64,000 nucleotides of DNA from Flavobacteriaceae bacterium UJ101 (GTDB lineage: Bacteria > Bacteroidota > Bacteroidia > Flavobacteriales > UJ101), in assembly GCA_001880285.1 (NCBI GenBank), contig CP016269.1, positions 434,001 through 498,000 on the forward strand. Reading direction: 5' to 3'. This document shows, in pieces, positions 4,917-33,212 of this stretch. Positions within the stretch are counted from its first letter, which is position 1. Each line of letters starts with the position of its first letter. The translations under genes were made by a program, and so were the position numbers. The notes under the pieces were generated by a model, which saw only the letters and a program-made list of their open reading frames with translations, did no database searches and had not been told where the DNA came from.

Positions 4917-7900
4917 TTATTTCAAATGTGTTTCTTTTATATTCACAACAATCTCAATAATTTTTCCTGTTCGATCAAAGAGTTCTTTACTCATTTTATT
5001 ATCTAAACTTAATTGATCAAATTCTATTTTCTCTCCTCCGTTTAGAAGAATTTGCACACGATCATCACTTGAAATTTTATATACAATTGGAACTTGACAA
5101 TATGTAAATCCAAGTGATTTTTCATTAAGGTTTATTGTTTTTTGTTTTCCATTTACCTCAACATAATTAAAAACACTTGATTCTGTTAAAAATTCATCTT
5201 TTCTTAATAAACAAGGGTTGAAATATAACTTACCTTGTTTTACAAAAACACCCAGTTCCCCAAATCTAGAAATCACATCTTCTTTTACCTGACCTGTCAT
5301 TCCAGGTTGTTGTGCTCCTTTTGTAGCTGGTGTATGGGAATATGGATCAGTAGGAAAAGCTCCATACAATGTAGGTGACTTATGAACGCCTATTCCTTCA
5401 TTAATCTCATAATAGTGTTCTAATAATCTACCCATAACCTCTGCTGATGCTTCTTTTTCAATAGCATCTAAACAACATTCTTGCACTGCTAACTGTAATT
5501 TAGAAACCATGTGCCAGTAAATACTTCCTAATCCTTCATATCCAAAGAAAGTCCCAGAACGACCCGTAAAGGCTTTATGATTGAATACTTCTTCAAAAAT
5601 AGTTAATATTAGATCTTGATCTTTTGTTACCGATTCTGCATAATCTGAATTGGATAATTGACCTAATACCTCTTTTACATTATTAGAATTTTTAAAGTTT
5701 CCATTAAAATGATAGGTTCCTTTTACACTTTTTTCAACAATTTGGGTGTTACCTTCTTCTATCATTTTTTTAAGTAACGTTGATTTTTCTATCGATGCCT
5801 TTGGTATATTATTTCGATCAAAGAATCCATTAATATTCTTATTAGGGTATAATATGTAACTATATTGATCATCACGGAAAAGTGCACTATCTTTCATCCC
5901 ATCTAATACAGCTAAGGCTTCTTCTGGCTTTAAATAACCTGAACTCAAGACAGCTACTTGTCCTTCTAACATTTCATCTAAATAAGAAATAGAAACTTCT
6001 TTTTCATTTTCTACTGTCATTAAGTTATAAGCATGGAACATATTATCTTCGCGTTGATTTGCTTTAATGGAATGATCGATAAAGGCTAAACCTAAATCTA
6101 CAAATCGACGTAAACCATTGAATGAAATCGTGCGTTTCTTTCCCCAAAAGGCTTGTTCGTATACATGTTCTCTGAATTCATTCGCTACTTCTCCTAAATT
6201 ATCTAAGACCATTTTACGATCTTCGTCATTAATTTTTCCTTCTAATAGATGTTGATTATCCTCTAATATTTGACGTACTTGTTTATAAAAATCAACTACT
6301 TCATTCGAAACCTTCACACCTTCTAAATCCGTTTTGCTTAATACTTCTTTAAAGAATTGCAAAAAACGACGTAAATAATACAATGTAACCATTGAAACCC
6401 CGTTTCCTACTAAAGCATTGTTCGCATCATTCCATTCAGGACGTTGCGTATTCATCCAAATTCCTCCTTCAGGAATGAAATTAGACATCTTAGCTAATGT
6501 GGTTGCTAATATTTTTTCAATAAAGTTTACTTGAACCAATTCATCATTCTCATCTCTCAGTAAAGCTCCATCTGCTCCTATTTTACTACGTAATGCTCGA
6601 ATTTTTTCATCTAAACCTAAATCAAAATCTATCGTATCTTTTGGATTGTTAACAATATCTTGGTACGGCTTAATTTTATAAGGAACATTAGCGTAAACAA
6701 AGAATTCTTTATCAAAATATTCTTCTAATTTACCTGGTTTATGTTTTTCTAAAAATTCTAAAAATTTAAGTAAATAAATAATTTGATGATCGCCCCAATA
6801 CCCAATATATGACCAAGGATCATCAGGTTCAATAGTTTCCCAATCAAAACCATCTTTGGTCACACGATATGGGTTGTAACCATCAAAAGTAGAAGCGTTT
6901 AAAAATTTACACATCATACTTTCCATAAACTCTGGAAATGAATGAGCTAAAGCCTCCCAATTTTGGAAGATATCACGCCAATTCCCTTCATAATCTAGAA
7001 TTTTAGAGCCATCTATTTCACTTCGAGTATTAATCGAAAATTTGTTCCAAGGTCTACTAGGATCTCCATGTCTTCGACTAAAGCGTAGTGGAAGGTATTC
7101 CATAGAAAGTCTTGAAAAGTTTGCATCTTCATGTTCGTATGCTAATTCTTTTAATTGTACCAATGTAAACGCTTCTGGTAATTTCTCTAGTTCGGTCTGA
7201 ACTTTTTGATAAACGGTTACATTCGCTTTTCTAAGATATTCACTAAAATCCCACTTTTCAATTTGGTAATTATAATCAAATATTCCTCCTCGCATAATAT
7301 TAAACAAGGTATTTGAAAAATGGCGTGTATCACGTAAATCATCTGCAGTAGACTGTAATGCATCAGCTGAAGCATTTAACGTAATTAAACGTTGTGTTCC
7401 ATCTTCAATCTTCTGATTTACGGTATCGTATAATGTTTTATCATTTTTAATTCTTTCAGTCAATGCTGCTACATCTGAATGATCTTTATTAACATCCGCT
7501 ACAAACATCCATTCTTTTTCAGCATTTGACTTAAGATTTATTTTCTCATGAACAAAATAAGCTCCTTTTTCAGCTTTTATATCCGTTTCTTCTTGTACTT
7601 TTTCTCCTTCTCTATAACGGCCTAATTGTCTTGATGACAGAAGATAAGTTGGGTTTTCTAAGCCTAATGACCAAACTACATTGGCTTTCAAAGCTTCACT
7701 TGGTTCTGCTTTATCTACAATAATAGCACTTAAAGCAAAAACACCTAATCCGGAAGACAGATCTAATTCGCTTCTTTTATAGGCATCTACTAAATTACTT
7801 GCTCGATTCTGTAAATCACTACCTACACCACTTGGTATTATATTTTGAATACCATCCAATACTAAAATTTCAACCTCTTGTTGATTATGATTTATTAACT

Positions 7901-13448: not shown

Positions 13449-16400
13449 TTATTTTCCAATGTTAATTTTTATATACGTTCTTATCTCCCATTCGTTTCCA
13501 TCATCATAACCTTCTGTCGCTATACATTGACCTGTAGCATCAGTAACAGGACAGTATCGTGGCGAATACTGATCTAGTGTACGCCAAGTTCCTCTAATTC
13601 CAATTTTAGTATCAGGTAAAATAAACCAACTTGGTTTTCCAACTGAAGTTGAAAGATCTGCCATTAACTGAACTGGGAATGTTTGGTTAAAATCTCTATG
13701 GTAATCATATGGTCCCCAATCATTAATTTTAACAGCAGAAATTAATTTAATTTTTCTATAAATCATACGAAGATCTAACCCATAACGATTGATAATCCTT
13801 TGACTATCACCATTAGCTTGTGCTTCTCCTCCATAAAGATTCGCTATAATTCCAAAATTTGGATTTAGTTTTGAAACAATACGTGCATAACCTTCCCATA
13901 AATCAGCAGGGCCTGCAGCTCCTGGGAATGCAAAAGTAGTTCTTCCATCAGGTAAGATTCCTATTGCAGCATCCATTGAAGTTGGCATATGACGATAAAT
14001 TGCCCCTACACTCGCAGCAAACTTTGCATCTTCTATTTCATCACTATTCCATTCATGCATCCATGTTCCTGGAGTTGGGTCATAGGTAAGTAATAGCTCA
14101 CTTCCATACGTTTCTCTATTTTGTCTAACAGAAAATGGATCATCTAAAATATTTCTTAATCTTCCTGGAGCTTGAACATCTCCTGGCATTGGGTCAACAA
14201 TAGGTTTTTGCCATAAAAAGTTAGGTGCAATTTCAAAATTACCTATTTTATAAGCAAAACCTCCTAAAACATTTTGTTGGTTACCACTACCACTATCTTT
14301 TAATCTCCATCCCGTGTAAGTTTTTGTATAATCAGTACCACCATTCGCAACTAATCCCATAATAGCTGATTGTAAATACCAACTAATTGGACCTTTCGAA
14401 TAGGTTAATTTTAGTTTACCACCCCAGTTATCACTAGCTTTTACCTGATCATCATAGATGGTATAATTCCCTGGCTCTCCTCTAGCAATTTGGAATGTTC
14501 TACCATTTAAAGGTTGTCCACCCCAAATACCTCCTACTTGAACTCCTAAATCACCAATTTTAGTTTTAGCACTTAATGTTACTCTTCTTGTCTGAGGTTG
14601 TGGTACAGCAATAGAACTTACCGCAGGTTCAGCATTATCAATATCTTCATGATAAATAGCTGCAACATCAAAACGCCCTATTTGTTTTCTATATTTTAAT
14701 AAGAATGCTGGATTGGCTCCCCACCATAATTGACGTCCAAAAGCAGCTTTAAAACCTTCTAAAGCTTGTTTACCATCTACTTCAAACCCTAATGTTTCTC
14801 CATTATAAATATCTAAATTAGGACCATAATTTGCCTCTGGATACAATCCAAAAAAGTCTCCTTCGTATCCCCAATGATAATGTCCTGTTCTATAAAAACC
14901 ATTCAAATCAAACAATTTATGATTCCATTCAAAACTAGCATTATAAACTTTTAATCGATCTATATCATCTAAAGTAACCGTTCCATCATCACTCGTTACA
15001 AATTCACGTGAACGACCTCTATTTTCATAAAAAATTTCATTAATAGGATTTGTTGCAACATTACCTAATATATTGAAATTAATATTCGCCCTAACATTTG
15101 ATGTTGGATTAGCTTCAATCCCTACATAATAGGATTCCATATGATCAAACCCTCTTTTATTAGGATAAGTATTACCATTTATATCATCTCCCTCTTCAAC
15201 AGGTGTTGAAATTAAATCTCCACCTGTATTAAAGGTTTCAAACTCTGCTCTAAAATTACTAATACGTATTCTCTTCGATAATTCAGAAACCAAGGAAGCT
15301 TTATCTCCTCTGGCTTTTAAAACAGCACCCATTACTTCAACCCCATCAAAATATTGATCTACAGAAGCTAATGTTGCCCCTTTATTATATGGATTTAATC
15401 TGTGAACTTCTTGTAATGCATAATAAGCAGCTCTAGGATACAGTTGATATAATCCTTTTGCATTTGTTTGACCTTTTGCACAAATTCCAAACCATTCTTC
15501 ATTCATATTATTCTGACCGTCTAAAAAGTCTTTTTGATACCCTCCATTGGACCATGATGCATTATTATCATGTTTATCAAGGTTCTTTGTTTGTCCATAT
15601 TTCCACCATCCATCACTAAATTGAAATGTAAAACCTCCAATAGAATTTCCTGCTTTACCTAAACCTGCAGCATTTTCATAAATTTCTTTCCAATTACCTA
15701 CTAAATAATATGCCTGAGCTTGCTGATCTTCTTCATTAGTTATCGCATTAAATGCATCGGCACCAAACTCGGTAAACATAATGGGTTTATTCAATTCATC
15801 TTTAATTTTCTGAAAAGCATCTCCAAAAGATATTCCACGGTATACATTTGTTCCATAGATATCCACATCTTTACATTCTTCTTTAATAATATTAAGAAAA
15901 AGCAAATCTCCATTACATATTGCAACTGGATGAGAACTATCAATTGCTTTCATAGCAACAGCAGCATCATTCATTAACTTATACATGGGTCTACCTCTAA
16001 CTTCTCCTATATGCTGCTTTTTTTCTTCTTCATCAGGGAAATCTTCTGTTTCTGCTCCTGCCCAGAAAAGCCCATAGTTATTTTCATTTCCTAATAAAAA
16101 CATCAACAAACCAGGAGTATCTTTATACTTTTCAGACATTTCTTTTACTTCTTTAAGAAGTAATTTCTGAGCCCTAGGATCACTATATTCAGTATTTGCT
16201 ACCCACGCACCGTCTATAGTTAAACCATAACGACCAAAAGAATGATTCAACATAGTATAAATACCATAATTCTCATAAATATATTGAATCCATTTTGGTG
16301 GCACACCCGTATATTGACGAATTACATTTACTCCCATATTCTTAAGTAAAGCCATTTCTTCGTCTAACGCTGCCTTTATTAAATCATCTGGTTGTTTCCA

Positions 16401-16586
16401 TAAACTATAGGTATAATTGGTTCCTATTGGAAAATAATCCCAGTTCATTCCATTTATCATGAAATTTTCTCCATTGACTACCAACTTCATTCCACTGTCA
16501 TCTTTAACAACTGAAACCTTATCTGCTTGAGCAAACATTGTTGTCATGGTTAGTAGTAAAAATGTTAATTTAAAAACGTTCTTCAT
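13449..16586 (-). CDS. Clan GH-A (GH2-like) hydrolase domain fused to a predicted outer-membrane beta-barrel
   Basis: 1045 residues with a Sec signal peptide (cleavage after about TMFAQ). Residues 30-420 form a TIM barrel of clan GH-A type, like the catalytic domain of GH2: NGMNWDYFPIG, NVIRQYTG, a probable acid/base in LLGNENN (Glu168) and a probable nucleophile in MFTEFGAD (Glu273). From about 430 to the end the sequence is a series of amphipathic strands with aromatic girdles and Gly-rich turns, ending EWEIRTYIKINIGK. This looks like a porin-type barrel of about 600 residues. An N-terminal domain before such a barrel would normally lie in the periplasm. First gene of a four-gene operon with two binding lipoproteins and GH16. 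The exact GH family and substrate are not recognisable by eye; a beta-glucan is inferred from context. Confidence 0.75.
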   Translation of the reverse strand: MKNVFKLTFLLLTMTTMFAQADKVSVVKDDSGMKLVVNGENFMINGMNWDYFPIGTNYTYSLWKQPDDLIKAALDEEMALLKNMGVNVIRQYTGVPPKWIQYIYENYGIYTMLNHSFGRYGLTIDGAWVANTEYSDPRAQKLLLKEVKEMSEKYKDTPGLLMFLLGNENNYGLFWAGAETEDFPDEEEKKQHIGEVRGRPMYKLMNDAAVAMKAIDSSHPVAICNGDLLFLNIIKEECKDVDIYGTNVYRGISFGDAFQKIKDELNKPIMFTEFGADAFNAITNEEDQQAQAYYLVGNWKEIYENAAGLGKAGNSIGGFTFQFSDGWWKYGQTKNLDKHDNNASWSNGGYQKDFLDGQNNMNEEWFGICAKGQTNAKGLYQLYPRAAYYALQEVHRLNPYNKGATLASVDQYFDGVEVMGAVLKARGDKASLVSELSKRIRISNFRAEFETFNTGGDLISTPVEEGDDINGNTYPNKRGFDHMESYYVGIEANPTSNVRANINFNILGNVATNPINEIFYENRGRSREFVTSDDGTVTLDDIDRLKVYNASFEWNHKLFDLNGFYRTGHYHWGYEGDFFGLYPEANYGPNLDIYNGETLGFEVDGKQALEGFKAAFGRQLWWGANPAFLLKYRKQIGRFDVAAIYHEDIDNAEPAVSSIAVPQPQTRRVTLSAKTKIGDLGVQVGGIWGGQPLNGRTFQIARGEPGNYTIYDDQVKASDNWGGKLKLTYSKGPISWYLQSAIMGLVANGGTDYTKTYTGWRLKDSGSGNQQNVLGGFAYKIGNFEIAPNFLWQKPIVDPMPGDVQAPGRLRNILDDPFSVRQNRETYGSELLLTYDPTPGTWMHEWNSDEIEDAKFAASVGAIYRHMPTSMDAAIGILPDGRTTFAFPGAAGPADLWEGYARIVSKLNPNFGIIANLYGGEAQANGDSQRIINRYGLDLRMIYRKIKLISAVKINDWGPYDYHRDFNQTFPVQLMADLSTSVGKPSWFILPDTKIGIRGTWRTLDQYSPRYCPVTDATGQCIATEGYDDGNEWEIRTYIKINIGK

Positions 16587-16755
16587 TACACATTAAGTTT
16601 TTTTATTTAAAAAATCCTCTCTTAAAATGTATTAAACTTCTATTATAACACTCTTCATTTTAAAACAAAGATCATGTTTTTCTTAATTGGTGTATACAAA
16701 ACCACTTAATACATGGGTTAAATATATAAAAAAGCTATATGAAAAAAGAATATTA

Positions 16756-16766
16756 TACCACAACAT
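16756..16766. promoter_or_regulatory. Single copy of the TACCACAACAT motif
   Basis: An exact 11-base match to the repeat unit of the palindrome at 16954-16994, 205 bp away and 170 bp upstream of the barrel-fusion ATG. That position suits an activator site. Confidence 0.5.
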
Positions 16767-16953
16767 GAAATATACAACTTCAATAATCAAATTCACTACA
16801 CTAAAAAATCACCTCTATTATTTTATTAAAAAAAGAATATAAGAATATATAAAACATTGTTTATCATAAAATTACATGTTTACTTCTTATAATAAAATAA
16901 TAAATAACTATTCACAAATAACTATTCATTATTTTTTAAATAAAGTTTATCAT

Positions 16954-16994
16954 ACAACATTACCACAACATGATGTTGTGGTAATGTTGTGGTA
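16954..16994. promoter_or_regulatory. Operator-like palindrome and tandem repeat cluster
   Basis: A perfect 37-bp palindrome with 18-bp arms (16954-16971 ACAACATTACCACAACAT and 16973-16990) around one central G. The right arm continues into an 11-bp tandem repeat, ATGTTGTGGTA at 16973-16983 and 16984-16994. The unit TACCACAACAT is therefore present once inverted and twice direct here, plus once at 16756. No run of T follows on the minus strand, so a terminator is unlikely. It is a candidate binding site for one of the two adjacent LuxR-type regulators. Confidence 0.65.
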
Positions 16995-17121
16995 AATTTA
17001 TAATAAAAGCATGTTAAAAAACTAACGTAGTACGAACACTACACTGTATTTCCATCTAGAAAATTCCAGTTAACCTATACCATAAATCGTACTAATAGCA
17101 TTTAATTGGATTGAAATGAAA

Positions 17122-19941
17122 TTACAGTTCAAGAATATAATTTGTTAAACTCACTTCATGAGATAAATTCATTTTTTTACGTAATCGGTAACGTTTCACT
17201 TCAACACTTCTTGTAGAAATATTTAACAAAGGTGCTATTTCTTTAGATGAAAGGTTTAGACGTAAATAGGCACATAAACGTAAATCATTAGGAGTTAAAT
17301 TGGGGTGACTAGCTTTAATTGTAGACAAAAAATGTTTATCTGCATTATTAAAAGCACTTTCAAACAACTTCCAATCATCAGAATTATTAAGATTTTCATC
17401 AATAATTTTAATAACATCTTGTAAATCCTCATCTGATTTTCGACTGTTTATTTGTGATTTTATACGATTTAAAAATTCATTCTTTTTAATTATATTCATA
17501 GTTGAAGTAGCTAACTCCTTATTTTTACTTGCAATATCCTGTTGAAGCTTCTCATTTGCAAACCTCATTGCTTGCTCTTTATTTTCTAATTCTTTTAATT
17601 CAATTTCATTTTGTGCTTTTTCAAGTAATTCTTTACGATAACTCATATAATATCTTTTATACAATGAATGAACTAGCAAAAGAAAGCCGATAAAAAGTAA
17701 ACCATAAAAAACAATAGCCATATTCGACCAATACCAAGGACGTAAAACGGTAAATTTATAAACAGCTTCATTACTTGAAACCTGATTACCCATTCTTGCT
17801 TTTACTTTAAAAACATAGTCTCCATAAGGTAAATTTTTAAAATTCTCAGAAGATTTAGTTTCCCAAGCACTCCAACCATCATAAAACCCTTCTAACTTAA
17901 ATATGTACTCTGGAATTATATACTTATCAAATTCTGGAACATTGAATGTTATTTGAACATTATTTTCATTATGCTTAATCTCTCCTATTTGATTGCTTTC
18001 TAAAAAATTCACTATATTTTTATCAAAAGATGAGCTCTTAACAGAATGAATGTAAACCTTAAAATTTCTTTGTTTTTTGATGGATTCATTATATTGATTT
18101 AAATCTAAAACAAAATACCCTAATTCATTTCCTAACAAATATTTTTCATTTCCTAACGGAATAATATTTTCATATCCATTCTTCGTATTTCTTAAGTTAC
18201 TTATTAAAGGGATCGAGTTAACTTCTGGTTTATCACTAATTTTACCTGGTAAGGTATACTTTATCTCATCTTTATTAAAAGACCAAAGTCTTCCTGTTTT
18301 TTCATCAACAATCAATTTACCTGATGTATAGTTATCTTCAGTAAACAAATTATCAAAAACAGAATCTTTACTAAACTTTCCTTTTATCTCATCAAATCGA
18401 AAAACTCCATCTTTAAAAGCAAATAAAATTTGATTTTGATATTTCACCAATCCTGAATTAAAACCGTCAATACCTTCTAATTCTTGATTAATCGATAATG
18501 CTTTCTTAAAATCATGATCTACCTCAACTTCATAAACCCCCTTATATTCATGACTTACAAAAATAGTTTCTCCTAAAATTTCAAAAAACCGAGAAGAAAT
18601 ATCAAATCCTTCAATTTTATTCCTAAACTTCCATGAATTATTACTTTTCTCCAAAATATTTAATCCATCATAATTCCCTTGAACCAATAAATTGGAATGA
18701 TTAGGTACTTTTTTAATATTCCAAGTTCCTTCAATATCTACTATTTTTTCTGCTTTGTTTTGATCAACCATAAAAGTTCCTTTGTCATGACCACATAACA
18801 ATTGATCATCTATTACTTTTAAAAACCAAACCTGCCCTCCTGTATTTGTTATAAACTTGAATTTTTCATCAGAATCAATTTTTTTATAAAACAACCCTTG
18901 ATTTGTTCCTAAATACAGATGTCCTTTATATAACGCTGAAGCGTAGACACTCCCAACGTCTCCTGTAATATCATTATAGAATCTAAAATAAGATGACTCA
19001 TTTATACAATCAATTCCATTATCAAGACCTAGCCAAATATTTTTTTCTTTATCCTCAAATACATTAAGAACTGTATTATTACTTAAACCGTTAGTTTTAT
19101 TAATTTGGTAACCTAATGTTCCTGTGGCATTTACTTTTACTAAACCATTTGAAATCGTTCCTAGCAAAAAACTTCCATCATTGAGTCGAATACTACTGTA
19201 CACAGACATTTTAGATACTACTTCATTAGCAGGAACTGCCCATTTTTTAAATAACTCATTCTCGAATAGATAAAAACCCCCATCAATAAATTGAACTATA
19301 ATTGCTTGTCCAAAACTGTATAGGTTTACAATTTTTTCTTCTTTAACTAAATCATTCTCAATAAGAAGTTCGCCAACACCTTTTTTGATTTTAAAAACTC
19401 CTACCCCCATTTCTTGATAATAAATATTACCATCTAACTCATACATCTTACTGATATTAGTTTTCGAATCAATTATCTTGTATTGATCATTATCCGTATT
19501 ATAAATATAAATTCTATTAAGTGATTGAAATAAAATCCAATTATCAAGACTTAAAATACTCCAAAACTGTTCATCATCTACTAATTCAATTTTTAGTTTT
19601 TCGGTAAGAGAAGTATAAGTCAATTTATTATATTGATCGTAGACCCAATACCCAAAATCCATATAAGATCCTGTATAAATTTTATCATCCACTACTTTAA
19701 CCGAACGCATAATCGTTTCATTGACAGTTGGGTATAATCCCCAAGTACTTCCATTAAATTCTAATAGTCCTTTATTATTTGCTATATAAATATTCTTATT
19801 TGAAGATTGCGATATTGACCAATTTTGACTTTCTCCTCCATACACTTCAGGATTATATATTTCAATAGGTGGTAATTCCTGTGCTTTAATGAAACATACA
19901 ATTAAGGGAACAATGTAATATAATAAATGCTTTAAATTCAT
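17122..19941 (-). CDS. Membrane-spanning sensor-regulator: beta-propeller, Y_Y_Y domain, TM helix, LuxR-type HTH
   Basis: 939 residues. A signal peptide (1-21) exports a long periplasmic part made of propeller repeats of the two-component regulator propeller type (for example ENIWLGLDNGIDCI), followed by a triple-tyrosine-like beta-sandwich (about 640-730, YIFKLEGFYDGWSAW). One transmembrane helix lies at about 734-760, then a coiled coil (765-815). The C-terminal HTH of the LuxR/GerE type (about 875-935) contains LTPNDLRLCAYLRLNLSSKEIA and SVEVKRYRLRKKM. There is no histidine kinase domain, so a sugar sensed in the periplasm probably acts directly on the cytosolic DNA-binding domain, as in SusR-like regulators. 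It is paralogous to the next gene upstream and ends 128 bp before the operator cluster. Confidence 0.85.
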   Translation of the reverse strand: MNLKHLLYYIVPLIVCFIKAQELPPIEIYNPEVYGGESQNWSISQSSNKNIYIANNKGLLEFNGSTWGLYPTVNETIMRSVKVVDDKIYTGSYMDFGYWVYDQYNKLTYTSLTEKLKIELVDDEQFWSILSLDNWILFQSLNRIYIYNTDNDQYKIIDSKTNISKMYELDGNIYYQEMGVGVFKIKKGVGELLIENDLVKEEKIVNLYSFGQAIIVQFIDGGFYLFENELFKKWAVPANEVVSKMSVYSSIRLNDGSFLLGTISNGLVKVNATGTLGYQINKTNGLSNNTVLNVFEDKEKNIWLGLDNGIDCINESSYFRFYNDITGDVGSVYASALYKGHLYLGTNQGLFYKKIDSDEKFKFITNTGGQVWFLKVIDDQLLCGHDKGTFMVDQNKAEKIVDIEGTWNIKKVPNHSNLLVQGNYDGLNILEKSNNSWKFRNKIEGFDISSRFFEILGETIFVSHEYKGVYEVEVDHDFKKALSINQELEGIDGFNSGLVKYQNQILFAFKDGVFRFDEIKGKFSKDSVFDNLFTEDNYTSGKLIVDEKTGRLWSFNKDEIKYTLPGKISDKPEVNSIPLISNLRNTKNGYENIIPLGNEKYLLGNELGYFVLDLNQYNESIKKQRNFKVYIHSVKSSSFDKNIVNFLESNQIGEIKHNENNVQITFNVPEFDKYIIPEYIFKLEGFYDGWSAWETKSSENFKNLPYGDYVFKVKARMGNQVSSNEAVYKFTVLRPWYWSNMAIVFYGLLFIGFLLLVHSLYKRYYMSYRKELLEKAQNEIELKELENKEQAMRFANEKLQQDIASKNKELATSTMNIIKKNEFLNRIKSQINSRKSDEDLQDVIKIIDENLNNSDDWKLFESAFNNADKHFLSTIKASHPNLTPNDLRLCAYLRLNLSSKEIAPLLNISTRSVEVKRYRLRKKMNLSHEVSLTNYILEL

Positions 19942-20069: not shown

Positions 20070-22841
20070 TTAATTAAATTTCCTTAAATATTCTGATAAA
20101 TTATCCTCTCTATCCAAGTGCATTTTTTTTCGTAATCTTGATCTACTAACATCTACACTACTCGAGTTTATACCTAACAGAGAAGCTATTTCTTTTGAAG
20201 TTAAATTCATTTTAAGAAAAGCACATGTACGCAAATCTTTAGTGGTTAAACTAGGATGTTTTTCATGTAATTTCTTAAAAAAAGAATCATGTGTTTTATC
20301 AAAATTCATTTCAAAAATCTTATCATCATCCCTAGATAAATAATATTCAATCGTAGATATCATTTCTTTATAATAACGCTTTGGTAATTTTTGAGATGAA
20401 GCTTCGTTTATTTCAATAAATTTTTTCTTAATTTTTTTCACCACACTATTTTTATTTAAATTAACTTGTGCAGCCTTAGCTAATTCACGATTTTTACTAT
20501 TTAATTCTATTTTTAATTTTTCATTTTCTAATCCTATAATTTCTTTTTGCTGCTGCAACCTATTTTCTTTAAATTTCTGTTCTTGTCTTATTAATTCTCT
20601 ATTTCTTTTTAATATTAAAAGGCGCTCTTGTTTACGCATTCTACTTTGATGAATTCTAATAAAAGTACCTATAATAATCAAAACAACTAAAAAAAAGCTT
20701 AATATCGAATACCATCTAAAATACCAAGGCTTATCAATTTTAAATTGAATAGATGATTCCTTTGACACTATTTTTTTATAAAGTGCTCTTAATCTCAATT
20801 GATGATCTCCATATCCAAGTTCATTTAAAACTAAACTCGATCCAGAAAAAGGAGCTGACCAATCCCTTTCGTCTATCTTATATTGGAATTTAAAATCATT
20901 ACCATAAAAGGGAAGTGTAAAATATACTTTTAAAGAAGTATTTGTTGGCTCGATAGCTTTTATATTCTCTATTTTTTTTATAGATATCAAACTTTCTATT
21001 TTAATAATTACTGGGTTCAATTTAATAAACATCTCTTTATTAAATTTATTACTATTTTTGTAGAGAGCAAAGCCATTATAAATAGGGAAAAACATAAAAT
21101 CGGCAACGGGTGTAATATTATCAATATTAGTCAAAACCTGATTATCTAAAAATTCAATTTTTAGCGTATCTTGATTATCTATTAAGTCTATCCCTTGATC
21201 AACCAATAACTTATATCTAGCATTTTTATAATCTATAACAATTGGGGCATCTGTTTTTTCAAATTTTTCATTTTTTATATTATACTTGAAATTCTGACCA
21301 TATTCATTTCTCAAAGACAATTCTTCATTATTATAAAAAAATTGTAATGAGCTTCCTTCAAACTCTTCTATAGAATACCAATCACGATCAATAATCTCAT
21401 CATATGCTTCATTTAATTTTAATTTAAAAATCCCTTTAGTTTTTATTCCAACCCAAATATTATCGTTAATATCTATAAATAAATTTCGAGAAGATTCTTC
21501 AAATCCAGCTAATTTTATTTTTTCCGACCACTTTCCATTATTTTTTTCATACACTACAATTCCATTATAATTCCCAGAAATTGCAAAATTTTTATTATTT
21601 AAAGGCAGGAATTTCCATGCACCCAATTCTTTTGATATTAAATTCAATGCTCCTCCTTCTATAACAAAAGTTCCTTTATCATGTCCTACAAAAACAGTCT
21701 CATCTATTTGTTTCAAACTCCAAACTTGACCATCCGACATAGGAATTTGCATTCCAAAATCATAAATTGATTTTAATGTATCCCATCTAGCTTTATATAA
21801 CCCCTGATTCGTCCCCACATATAGATCATCTTTATACTTCAAAGCGGTATAAGCTGTACCAAATAATCCAAAATAATCATAAAAATATGTATTATTTGAA
21901 TTTACCTTAATATAACTAATACCATAATCTAAACCCAGCCAAATATTATCTTCAATATCATTTTCAATAGTTAAAACTGTATTATTTAATAATCCATTCT
22001 TTTTTGAAAAATGTTGTACGATTTCTAACTTTTCATTAATTATATATAATCCATTCTTTACAGTACCAAAAGCCCAATTACCACCTACTTTACTAACTGA
22101 AAAAATATTTTGTAAACTGATCGTTTTAAAGTTATTATGAAGACAAGGTTTTAATATTCCTTCTTTCAATTCTAATATCTCACTTTCATAATTTACAAAG
22201 TAATATTTACCTTTGATTAAAAACCCATCTTTTATATCATGCGTATATTTATTTTTGGTAATAGCTATTAAAGATTCATTTTCCAATTTAAATAATCCAT
22301 TATTTCGATCAGAAATATATATTTCATCATTTAATTTAAAGGCCCAATTAAATCGATTCCTTGCAGGAATTTTCACCGAAATATGACCATTAAATATATA
22401 TAAATTTTTAAATGATTGAAAAACAATTTTATTACCATTTTTAAATATTCTCCAAAATTCTTCTACATCTTCCCCTTCCTCTTTATCAGTAAAATACAAT
22501 GAATTATAACTCCAAGTATCATTTTCTTTAATAAACAATCCAAAATCACCATCTAGCCCAACAAAAACACTATCATTATTTACAGCATAAACACTTCTAA
22601 TAATTGATTTTTTAGTTGCTATCTCTTGAAAATCAACTCCATTATATTCTAATAATTTTTTACCATTTGCAAAATATAAAAAGCCATTGGCTCCTTGCGA
22701 AATATCCCAAATCTTACTCTCTCCTTGATAATCTACAATATCAAAGTTTTTCATATATGGGACCCCTTTGTGTACCAAATTTTGAGCATAAAGGTTTATT
22801 GAAAAAAGAAAATAACTAAATAATATTAACCTACAAATCAT
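20070..22841 (-). CDS. Second membrane-spanning sensor-regulator, paralog of the neighbouring one
   Basis: I chose the ATG at 22841, which gives a normal signal peptide (MICRLILFSYFLFSINLYAQ) and 923 residues. An upstream ATG at 22898 adds 19 residues before it. The architecture is the same as its neighbour: periplasmic propeller with NIWLGLDYGISYI, a Y_Y_Y-like domain (FQYKIDERDWSAPF), a TM helix at about 705-730, a coiled coil rich in Glu/Lys/Gln, and a LuxR-type HTH (LTTKDLRTCAFLKMNLTSKEIA). The two are clearly diverged, so they may sense different ligands, for instance beta-1,3- versus beta-1,6-linked oligosaccharides. The gene lies 163 bp after the PKD lipoprotein gene. The gap of 128 bp to the next regulator gene allows a separate promoter. 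Confidence 0.85.
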   Translation of the reverse strand: MICRLILFSYFLFSINLYAQNLVHKGVPYMKNFDIVDYQGESKIWDISQGANGFLYFANGKKLLEYNGVDFQEIATKKSIIRSVYAVNNDSVFVGLDGDFGLFIKENDTWSYNSLYFTDKEEGEDVEEFWRIFKNGNKIVFQSFKNLYIFNGHISVKIPARNRFNWAFKLNDEIYISDRNNGLFKLENESLIAITKNKYTHDIKDGFLIKGKYYFVNYESEILELKEGILKPCLHNNFKTISLQNIFSVSKVGGNWAFGTVKNGLYIINEKLEIVQHFSKKNGLLNNTVLTIENDIEDNIWLGLDYGISYIKVNSNNTYFYDYFGLFGTAYTALKYKDDLYVGTNQGLYKARWDTLKSIYDFGMQIPMSDGQVWSLKQIDETVFVGHDKGTFVIEGGALNLISKELGAWKFLPLNNKNFAISGNYNGIVVYEKNNGKWSEKIKLAGFEESSRNLFIDINDNIWVGIKTKGIFKLKLNEAYDEIIDRDWYSIEEFEGSSLQFFYNNEELSLRNEYGQNFKYNIKNEKFEKTDAPIVIDYKNARYKLLVDQGIDLIDNQDTLKIEFLDNQVLTNIDNITPVADFMFFPIYNGFALYKNSNKFNKEMFIKLNPVIIKIESLISIKKIENIKAIEPTNTSLKVYFTLPFYGNDFKFQYKIDERDWSAPFSGSSLVLNELGYGDHQLRLRALYKKIVSKESSIQFKIDKPWYFRWYSILSFFLVVLIIIGTFIRIHQSRMRKQERLLILKRNRELIRQEQKFKENRLQQQKEIIGLENEKLKIELNSKNRELAKAAQVNLNKNSVVKKIKKKFIEINEASSQKLPKRYYKEMISTIEYYLSRDDDKIFEMNFDKTHDSFFKKLHEKHPSLTTKDLRTCAFLKMNLTSKEIASLLGINSSSVDVSRSRLRKKMHLDREDNLSEYLRKFN

Positions 22842-23004
22842 ATTAATTACATAATCATATACATTATTAAGATTTTTAAATATACACATATTAAACAAAA
22901 TAGAAATAGTATATAAAATTGTACTTAAATGAAGTTACTCTTTATCTTTTTTCTAATAAATCTAAAAGTACTATAATACTTATCAAATAATAAAAAGTTC
23001 ATAT

Positions 23005-31991: not shown

Positions 31992-31999
31992 CAAAATTA
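31992..31999 (-). promoter_or_regulatory. Probable -7 box of the susC-susD-GH16 operon
   Basis: The plus strand reads CAAAATTA, so the minus strand reads TAATTTTG, an exact TAnnTTTG match, 35 bp upstream of the SusC start. A -33 TTG is not evident, which is common in activator-dependent promoters. Confidence 0.5.
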
Positions 32000-32307
32000 C
32001 CTTTAAAACTAAAATGATTAACTTTTTTATAACCTATATATTATCTATACATTATAAAAAAAGAACTTTTAATACTAAAAATTTAAAAATATAAATTATT
32101 GATTATAAAATATTTATGATTTAATAAAAGTATTAAATACACCAATAAATTATCATGTTAAAAAATAATTGTTGTATAGAATAATTTAACTTAAAATAAA
32201 GTATTAAATTACCACAATAAGTATATTTTAATCTATTATATAGATAAAATTCATTGTACAAAAAGTAAAAACAATACAATAAATAACAAAAAATAATTCT
32301 CATAGAT

Positions 32308-33180: not shown

Positions 33181-33212
33181 AAAGGATGTTAAAATTAATT
33201 TTAACATCCTTT
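33181..33212. terminator. Bidirectional terminator between dapD and typA
   Basis: A perfect 32-bp palindrome with arms AAAGGATGTTAAAATT and AATTTTAACATCCTTT lies between convergent genes. T-rich sequence follows on the plus side and A-rich sequence (T-rich on minus) precedes it. Confidence 0.85.

Follow-up and report, generated by a model that had tools for sequence, protein, structure and literature searches.

Flavobacteriaceae bacterium UJ101 carries a 535-bp gap between a regulator gene and the first gene of an operon, and within it a 37-bp perfect palindrome overlaps an 11-bp tandem repeat. What does this element do, and which protein acts on it? A preliminary description of the window, by which we mean the whole 64,000-nucleotide stretch of DNA that was analysed, proposed that the palindrome and its repeats are the operator of the two LuxR-type regulators of a PUL. 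The reading reached here, to which we assign a probability of about 0.82, is that the gap contains an operator through which P0001, the neighbouring one-component regulator anchored in the membrane, activates transcription by binding two sites on one face of the DNA.

The genes that bear on this question are the following.

13449–16586, minus strand: 1045-aa GH2-C-type TIM-barrel protein (Pfam Glyco_hydro_2_C), the putative regulated gene
17122–19941, minus strand: regulator P0001 (REG1), 939 aa (Pfam Reg_prop, Y_Y_Y and GerE)
20070–22898, minus strand: second regulator P0002 (REG2), 29% identical to P0001

The gap lies between the end of P0001 and the start of the 1045-aa protein gene, both on the minus strand. 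The latter is the first gene of an operon that continues with GH16, CBM, GH149, GH17 and GH30 genes, and an NCBIfam match of 1811.6 bits assigns the GH149 product as a beta-1,3-glucan phosphorylase. Upstream of the gap are the second regulator, a transporter, another GH16-like gene, susD and susC; the transporter and the second GH16 gene were assigned by eye and by tblastn labels. Judged by these families, the locus looks like a laminarin PUL. The only Pfam match in the 1045-aa protein is the GH2-C TIM barrel at residues 72–283, and the long C-terminal part of what had been called a barrel fusion matches no Pfam family. The protein is widespread, with at least 591 confirmed stretches.

P0001 consists of a Reg_prop/Y_Y_Y sensor, one membrane-spanning stretch near residues 737–762 and a C-terminal LuxR-type HTH at residues 896–934. 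The HTH matches GerE (PF00196) with 26.8 bits against a cut-off of 23.5, which identifies it as LuxR-type, and it carries the class sequence ...ISTRSVEVKRYRLRKKM. PDB matches to P0001 are 3v9f and 4a2l, and the best sequence match is the hybrid 3v9f. No histidine kinase, receiver or AraC HTH is present among its Pfam matches at E 0.001.

16954–16990, no strand: 37-bp perfect palindrome, identified from the sequence and its shuffles

The palindrome and the overlapping tandem repeat are present exactly as first described. The palindrome arms (16954–16971 and 16973–16990) are 18 nt each, 100% complementary and separated by a 1-nt spacer. The palindrome ends at 16990 and the tandem repeat (16973–16994), which consists of ATGTTGTGGTA at 16973–16983 and again at 16984–16994, ends at 16994. 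Exact copies of TACCACAACAT start at 16756, 16961, 16973 (minus strand) and 16984 (minus strand), so that the count of four in one gap is confirmed, and a scan of the whole 3.07-Mb genome detected five in total, four of them concentrated here. The fifth copy lies 3′ of a gene, outside any promoter. A control 11-mer made by reversing the sequence without complementing it occurs 7 times genome-wide versus 5 for TACCACAACAT, and with 2 mismatches allowed TACCACAACAT is not enriched across the whole window (30 matches versus 22.15 expected). Exact TACCACAACAT was rejected as a genome-wide operator because it has five copies, one of which is outside the gap and away from promoters.

Comparison of the orthologous gaps in relatives distinguished the conserved unit from the palindrome. 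A scan with the 1045-aa protein yielded 80 loci, 78 of which had at least 150 bp upstream (L011 and L079, with less, were dropped). TACCACAACAT with at most one mismatch occurs upstream in 23 of the 78 loci, in 21 of these on the operon strand. Side-by-side reading of the relatives reveals two 11-bp units in direct tandem, TACCtatACAt TACCacaACA, with the unit consensus TACCnnnACAt. Conservation is sharply confined to 22 bp, a tandem direct repeat of TACCnnnACA with a period of 11 on the operon strand, and this block is referred to as site 1. With the seven fixed letters per unit counted, a score of at least 12 of 14 is reached by 41 of the 79 upstreams, the window's among them, versus 0.3 in shuffles; since the pattern was itself picked out of these upstreams, the figures alone are not independent. 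The first matrix was likewise derived from the upstreams it scored; site 1 at 15 bits or more lies upstream of 49 of the 78 barrel-gene orthologues, and shuffled upstreams gave a mean of 0.0 of 79 over 10 rounds. Orientation is almost uniform, with 50 forward and 1 reversed among the 79 upstreams (window included).

A search of 1.56 Mb of loci at 18 bits or more returned 73 site 1 matches, 71 of them on the same strand as the gene with which the locus was fetched. By its label, the nearest downstream gene encodes the barrel protein in 48 cases, SusC in 5, a PKD/CBM protein in 7, a regulator in 3 and GH149 in 1, and 9 are unassigned. The five susC matches (L012, L025, L030, L047 and L073) lay outside the training set, and one of the three matches labelled as regulator, that in L010, really belongs to the promoter of the barrel gene in a divergent pair. 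L010 also contains an extra pair of elements at 6156–6305, a site 1 and a site 2 (described below) 126 bp apart, immediately after the regulator's stop codon and before GH149, which is on the minus strand. The GH149 gene in L010 is a candidate third target gene of the same putative operator.

The perfect palindrome is not conserved in the relatives; the conserved element is the direct repeat. Of the 49 relatives that carry site 1, only three, the Flavobacterium loci L003, L004 and L006, also have an inverted unit beside it. Among 60 genomes the 23-bp palindrome core was detected only in that of the window, a count of little information because the other 59 all come from other families; at family level the set comprises the window's genome alone. 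The operator sequence proposed in the preliminary description is conserved, but the putative recognized unit is the 11-bp direct tandem and not the palindrome.

Relatives contain a second element, site 2, in the opposite orientation (WTGTATRTTTTTTGTTGAGGT). TTTTR, a −33-like element, starts 3 bp downstream of site 2, at +25 to +29, which places site 2 against the −33 region. TAnnTTTA/G is found at an offset of 28 or 29 from site 2; the 48 sequences compared, the window's among them, gave 42 matches. The Bacteroidetes promoter described in PMC7366714 has a −7 element TAnnTTTG and a −33 element TTTG. The element in the relatives agrees with this −7 form, its last position being mostly A, not G.

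The corresponding elements of the window are the following.

16972–16995, minus strand: site 1, a forward tandem of two 11-bp units, TTACCACAACATTACCACAACATC on the operon strand (29.6 bits)
16950–16971, plus strand: inverted copy of site 1 that completes the palindrome, degenerate unit TCATACAACAT then unit TACCACAACAT (9.9 bits on the plus strand)
16755–16778, minus strand: site 2, promoter-proximal and in the opposite orientation, GTTGTATATTTCATGTTGTGGTAT (19.5 bits, site-2 matrix)
16719–16726, minus strand: predicted −7 element TATATTTA, similar to the Bacteroidetes −7 consensus (read from the sequence; its offset of 28 from site 2 is conserved in relatives)

The site-1 matrix was trained on 40 sites from relatives with the window excluded, and none of 2000 shuffles of the gap reached the site 1 score; the site 2 score was reached by 1 of 2000. 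The TACCACAACAT copy at 16756–16766, originally counted as a lone copy, is present but forms half of the inverted, promoter-adjacent site 2. The window −33 region (ATATT) is poor. Following site 1 on the operon strand, the inverted copy reads ATGTTGTGGTA ATGTTGTATGA and creates the palindrome, which probably arose as a local inverted duplication of site 1, doubled head to head by fold-back duplication. Genome-wide, neither pattern is enriched: the tandem pattern with 1 mismatch has 2 matches versus 3 in the control, the second of them inside the end of a gene, and the site-2 pattern has 36 versus 52.

The presence of the sites tracks the class of regulator in two sets of loci. In the first set, 39 of the 43 loci whose regulator shares at least 40% identity with P0001 carry site 1, as do 0 of 20 loci that have only regulators below 40% identity; of the 15 loci in which the fetched stretch contains no regulator, 10 carry it, and there the regulator may lie outside that stretch. 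To avoid the bias that the first query brings, a second set was assembled with P0001 as the query, from 395 genomes of the class and 395 of the order. Excluding the window's own locus, it contained 53 loci, 35 at 43% identity or more and 18 at 37% or less. Site 1 (at least 17 bits) lies 19 to 24 bp after the regulator stop codon in 33 of the 35 closer loci and site 2 (at least 20 bits) is present in 29 of them, whereas the 18 others have neither. Fisher tests of the association gave p = 8e-13 and 3e-12, with phylogeny ignored. The two exceptions for site 1 are L145, narrowly below the threshold at 16.4 bits, and L146, which lacks site 1 and closely duplicates an earlier locus. The gene after site 1 in this set is mostly susC.

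This association is confounded with phylogeny, and a different factor, either P0002 or a global regulator, could bind the sites while the link to P0001 reflects only shared descent of the locus. P0002 is encoded at the same locus and resembles P0001 along its whole length, HTH included; where P0001 matches GerE, it gives just a sub-threshold Sigma70_r4_2 match. Such a factor is nevertheless unlikely. The sites are widespread, yet at E 1e-130 the 395 genomes of the order, its own apart, contain no relative of P0002. P0001-type genes accompany the sites before differing targets (the barrel gene, susC and GH149), and loci with diverged regulators lack site 1, 11 of these 20 sharing a different element, TTTTGTAGTAGT, compared with 2 of 59 others. 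The concentration in the gap, the conserved orientation and the link to the regulator uphold the view that this is an operator of a PUL regulator, but the evidence points to P0001 and not to both regulators. P0002 may be private to this lineage, and it could serve the susC promoter.

The recognition helix of the diverged regulators is mostly GVEVARYR or close to it, versus SVEVKRYR in the P0001 class. TTTTGTAGTAGT and the differing helix are what a joint change of site and regulator would predict, a correspondence that is confounded with clade, and TTTTGTAGTAGT probably serves a sister class of regulators as its operator. It is located within the 600 bp upstream of the barrel gene in L034, L036, L040, L042, L070, L074, L075 and L078, among others. 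Some loci with a divergent, diverged regulator also carry GATGAAATnTTTGATGAGGT, with a period of 12. A GATGA repeat in the 20 diverged-regulator loci occurs at period 11 in none and at period 12 in 5.

The distance between the two sites was analyzed in a pool of 77 site 1–site 2 pairs from both locus sets and four susC promoters. Distances fall within 80–160 bp in 74 pairs; the other three, at 313, 313 and 327 bp, were excluded from the phasing test. The distances cluster at 90, 104–105, 112–115, 123–128, 133–138 and 146–151 bp, with none between clusters. Collapsing similar spacers left 62 representatives, which gave R = 0.70 at 10.5 bp with a maximum near 10.95 bp, and 0 of 5000 distance sets jittered by up to 5 bp reached the observed R. 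Distances that differ by one helical turn indicate that both sites must face the same way. The window is atypical, with site 1 located 126 bp past the regulator stop codon, compared with 19–24 bp in relatives, and 217 bp from site 2, which is 1.7–3.5 bp off the extrapolated phase. The phasing rule does not demonstrably extend to the window genome; one speculation is that the inverted copy of site 1 compensates for the off-phase spacing.

The palindrome could instead act as RNA, either as a terminator or as a hairpin that stabilizes the 3′ end of the regulator transcript. Its position is 3′ of the regulator's stop codon, and it would fold into a strong hairpin (−26 kcal/mol, z = −6.2, with no shuffle equally stable). 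Before the barrel gene of L003, L004 and L006, site 1 is followed by an inverted half-site and then by a long T-run, which would read as a terminator; here an operator half-site has apparently been reused as a terminator-like hairpin. The window itself has no such T-run, as the preliminary description stated, and 16500–17250 contains no terminator-like site, that is, no GC-rich stem followed by a T-run. An Rfam search returned nothing above threshold, only a sub-threshold match of 21.9 bits versus the 79 required. The conserved direct repeat cannot pair with itself, and the inverted unit that would allow pairing is rare in the relatives. A role as an RNA element is therefore very improbable. 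A functionless product of chance or repeat expansion is scarcely credible: the gap is AT-rich with other short tandem repeats and the perfect palindrome is not conserved, but its 18-bp arm is the longest among the perfect palindromes of the window, compared with a maximum of 15 in 30 dinucleotide shuffles of the window, and the site 1 unit is kept at the same place in relatives of 65–72% protein identity.

The operator reading suggests a mechanism for P0001. Each site consists of a direct tandem of two 11-bp units, a period that puts both units on one face of the helix, and in relatives two such sites occur in opposite orientations, the distal site 1 and the proximal site 2. P0001 is proposed to bind both. 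The same-facing sites would either be bridged by the regulator or both face the membrane that holds it. Periplasmic beta-1,3-glucan fragments would be sensed and activate the regulator, which would then recruit RNA polymerase at site 2. In the window genome, site 1 would have been doubled head to head by the fold-back event to give the perfect palindrome. A bolder extension, which we consider doubtful, is that a membrane-anchored regulator on two inverted same-face tandem sites holds a DNA loop of ~8 to 14 helical turns against the inner membrane, and that co-translational insertion delivers the operator there, the gene anchoring its own switch in cis. This cis delivery is suggested because site 1 of the relatives is so close to the regulator's own stop codon.

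Known regulators of polysaccharide genes share some of these features. For SusR-like regulators of Bacteroides, Ravcheev et al. (2013, PMC3878776) predicted motifs of two sites that form a direct repeat with a spacing of 67 or 77 bp. P0001 resembles these systems as a membrane-anchored polysaccharide regulator with two separated sites and a long spacing in helical-turn steps. The sites described here differ in being mutually inverted, in each being an 11-bp tandem and in their distances, 90–151 bp in most relatives (313–327 bp in three) and 217 bp in the window, compared with centers 67 or 77 bp apart. The available text of PMC3878776 describes the SusR DNA-binding domain as having no significant similarity to known ones, whereas P0001 has a LuxR (GerE) HTH by Pfam. 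In the same source, the predicted motifs of the hybrid two-component systems (HTCS) are direct repeats with sites about 21 bp apart. P0001 has the HTCS type of periplasmic sensor (Reg_prop/Y_Y_Y), and both use direct-repeat motifs. It differs from HTCS in having no kinase or receiver Pfam match, in carrying a LuxR rather than an AraC HTH, and in its unit period of 11 bp. Separated sites in helical steps combined with 11-bp tandems, inverted sites, a LuxR HTH and no kinase place this system in neither the SusR-like nor the HTCS group.

LuxR/FixJ-type operators are inverted-repeat (dyad) sites bound by regulators with LuxR-type HTH domains. P0001 shares the HTH type and the window palindrome resembles a LuxR inverted repeat, but the conserved site is a direct repeat and not a dyad. 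Direct-repeat binding is described as restricted to few regulators, mostly of the AraC family (PMC9723621). The P0001 class would be a case of a LuxR-type HTH that uses direct repeats. A literature search returned no published motif for this Reg_prop/Y_Y_Y/LuxR regulator class, and the accessible text of PMC12125979 and PMC7157763 gives none.

The palindrome of the window is an elaborated version of a conserved putative docking site made of 11-bp direct repeats, at which a membrane-bound, sugar-sensing regulator would probably switch on laminarin genes. Laminarin is an algal sugar and a major marine carbon store. To our knowledge, the enzymes of flavobacterial PULs are widely described and their switches rarely so. 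A 22-bp motif at a nearly fixed place after the regulator gene makes the regulons of this class readable from sequence, and the helical phasing makes it testable whether a membrane-bound regulator loops the DNA or faces it to the membrane.

Two further elements were detected upstream of susC in the window.

32030–32053, plus strand: weak site-1-like tandem (15.4 bits; score reached by 2 of 2000 shuffles of the susC gap)
31992–31999, minus strand: candidate −7 element of susC, TAATTTTG (read from the sequence; offset of 30 from the 32030–32053 tandem)

Scored with the matrix, the susC gap lacks a site 2 (−4.0 bits); the weak tandem occupies the promoter-proximal position and is inverted relative to susC. 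Another perfect palindrome, whose 16-bp arms adjoin without a spacer, is located at 33181–33212 between two convergent genes and is probably a two-way terminator.
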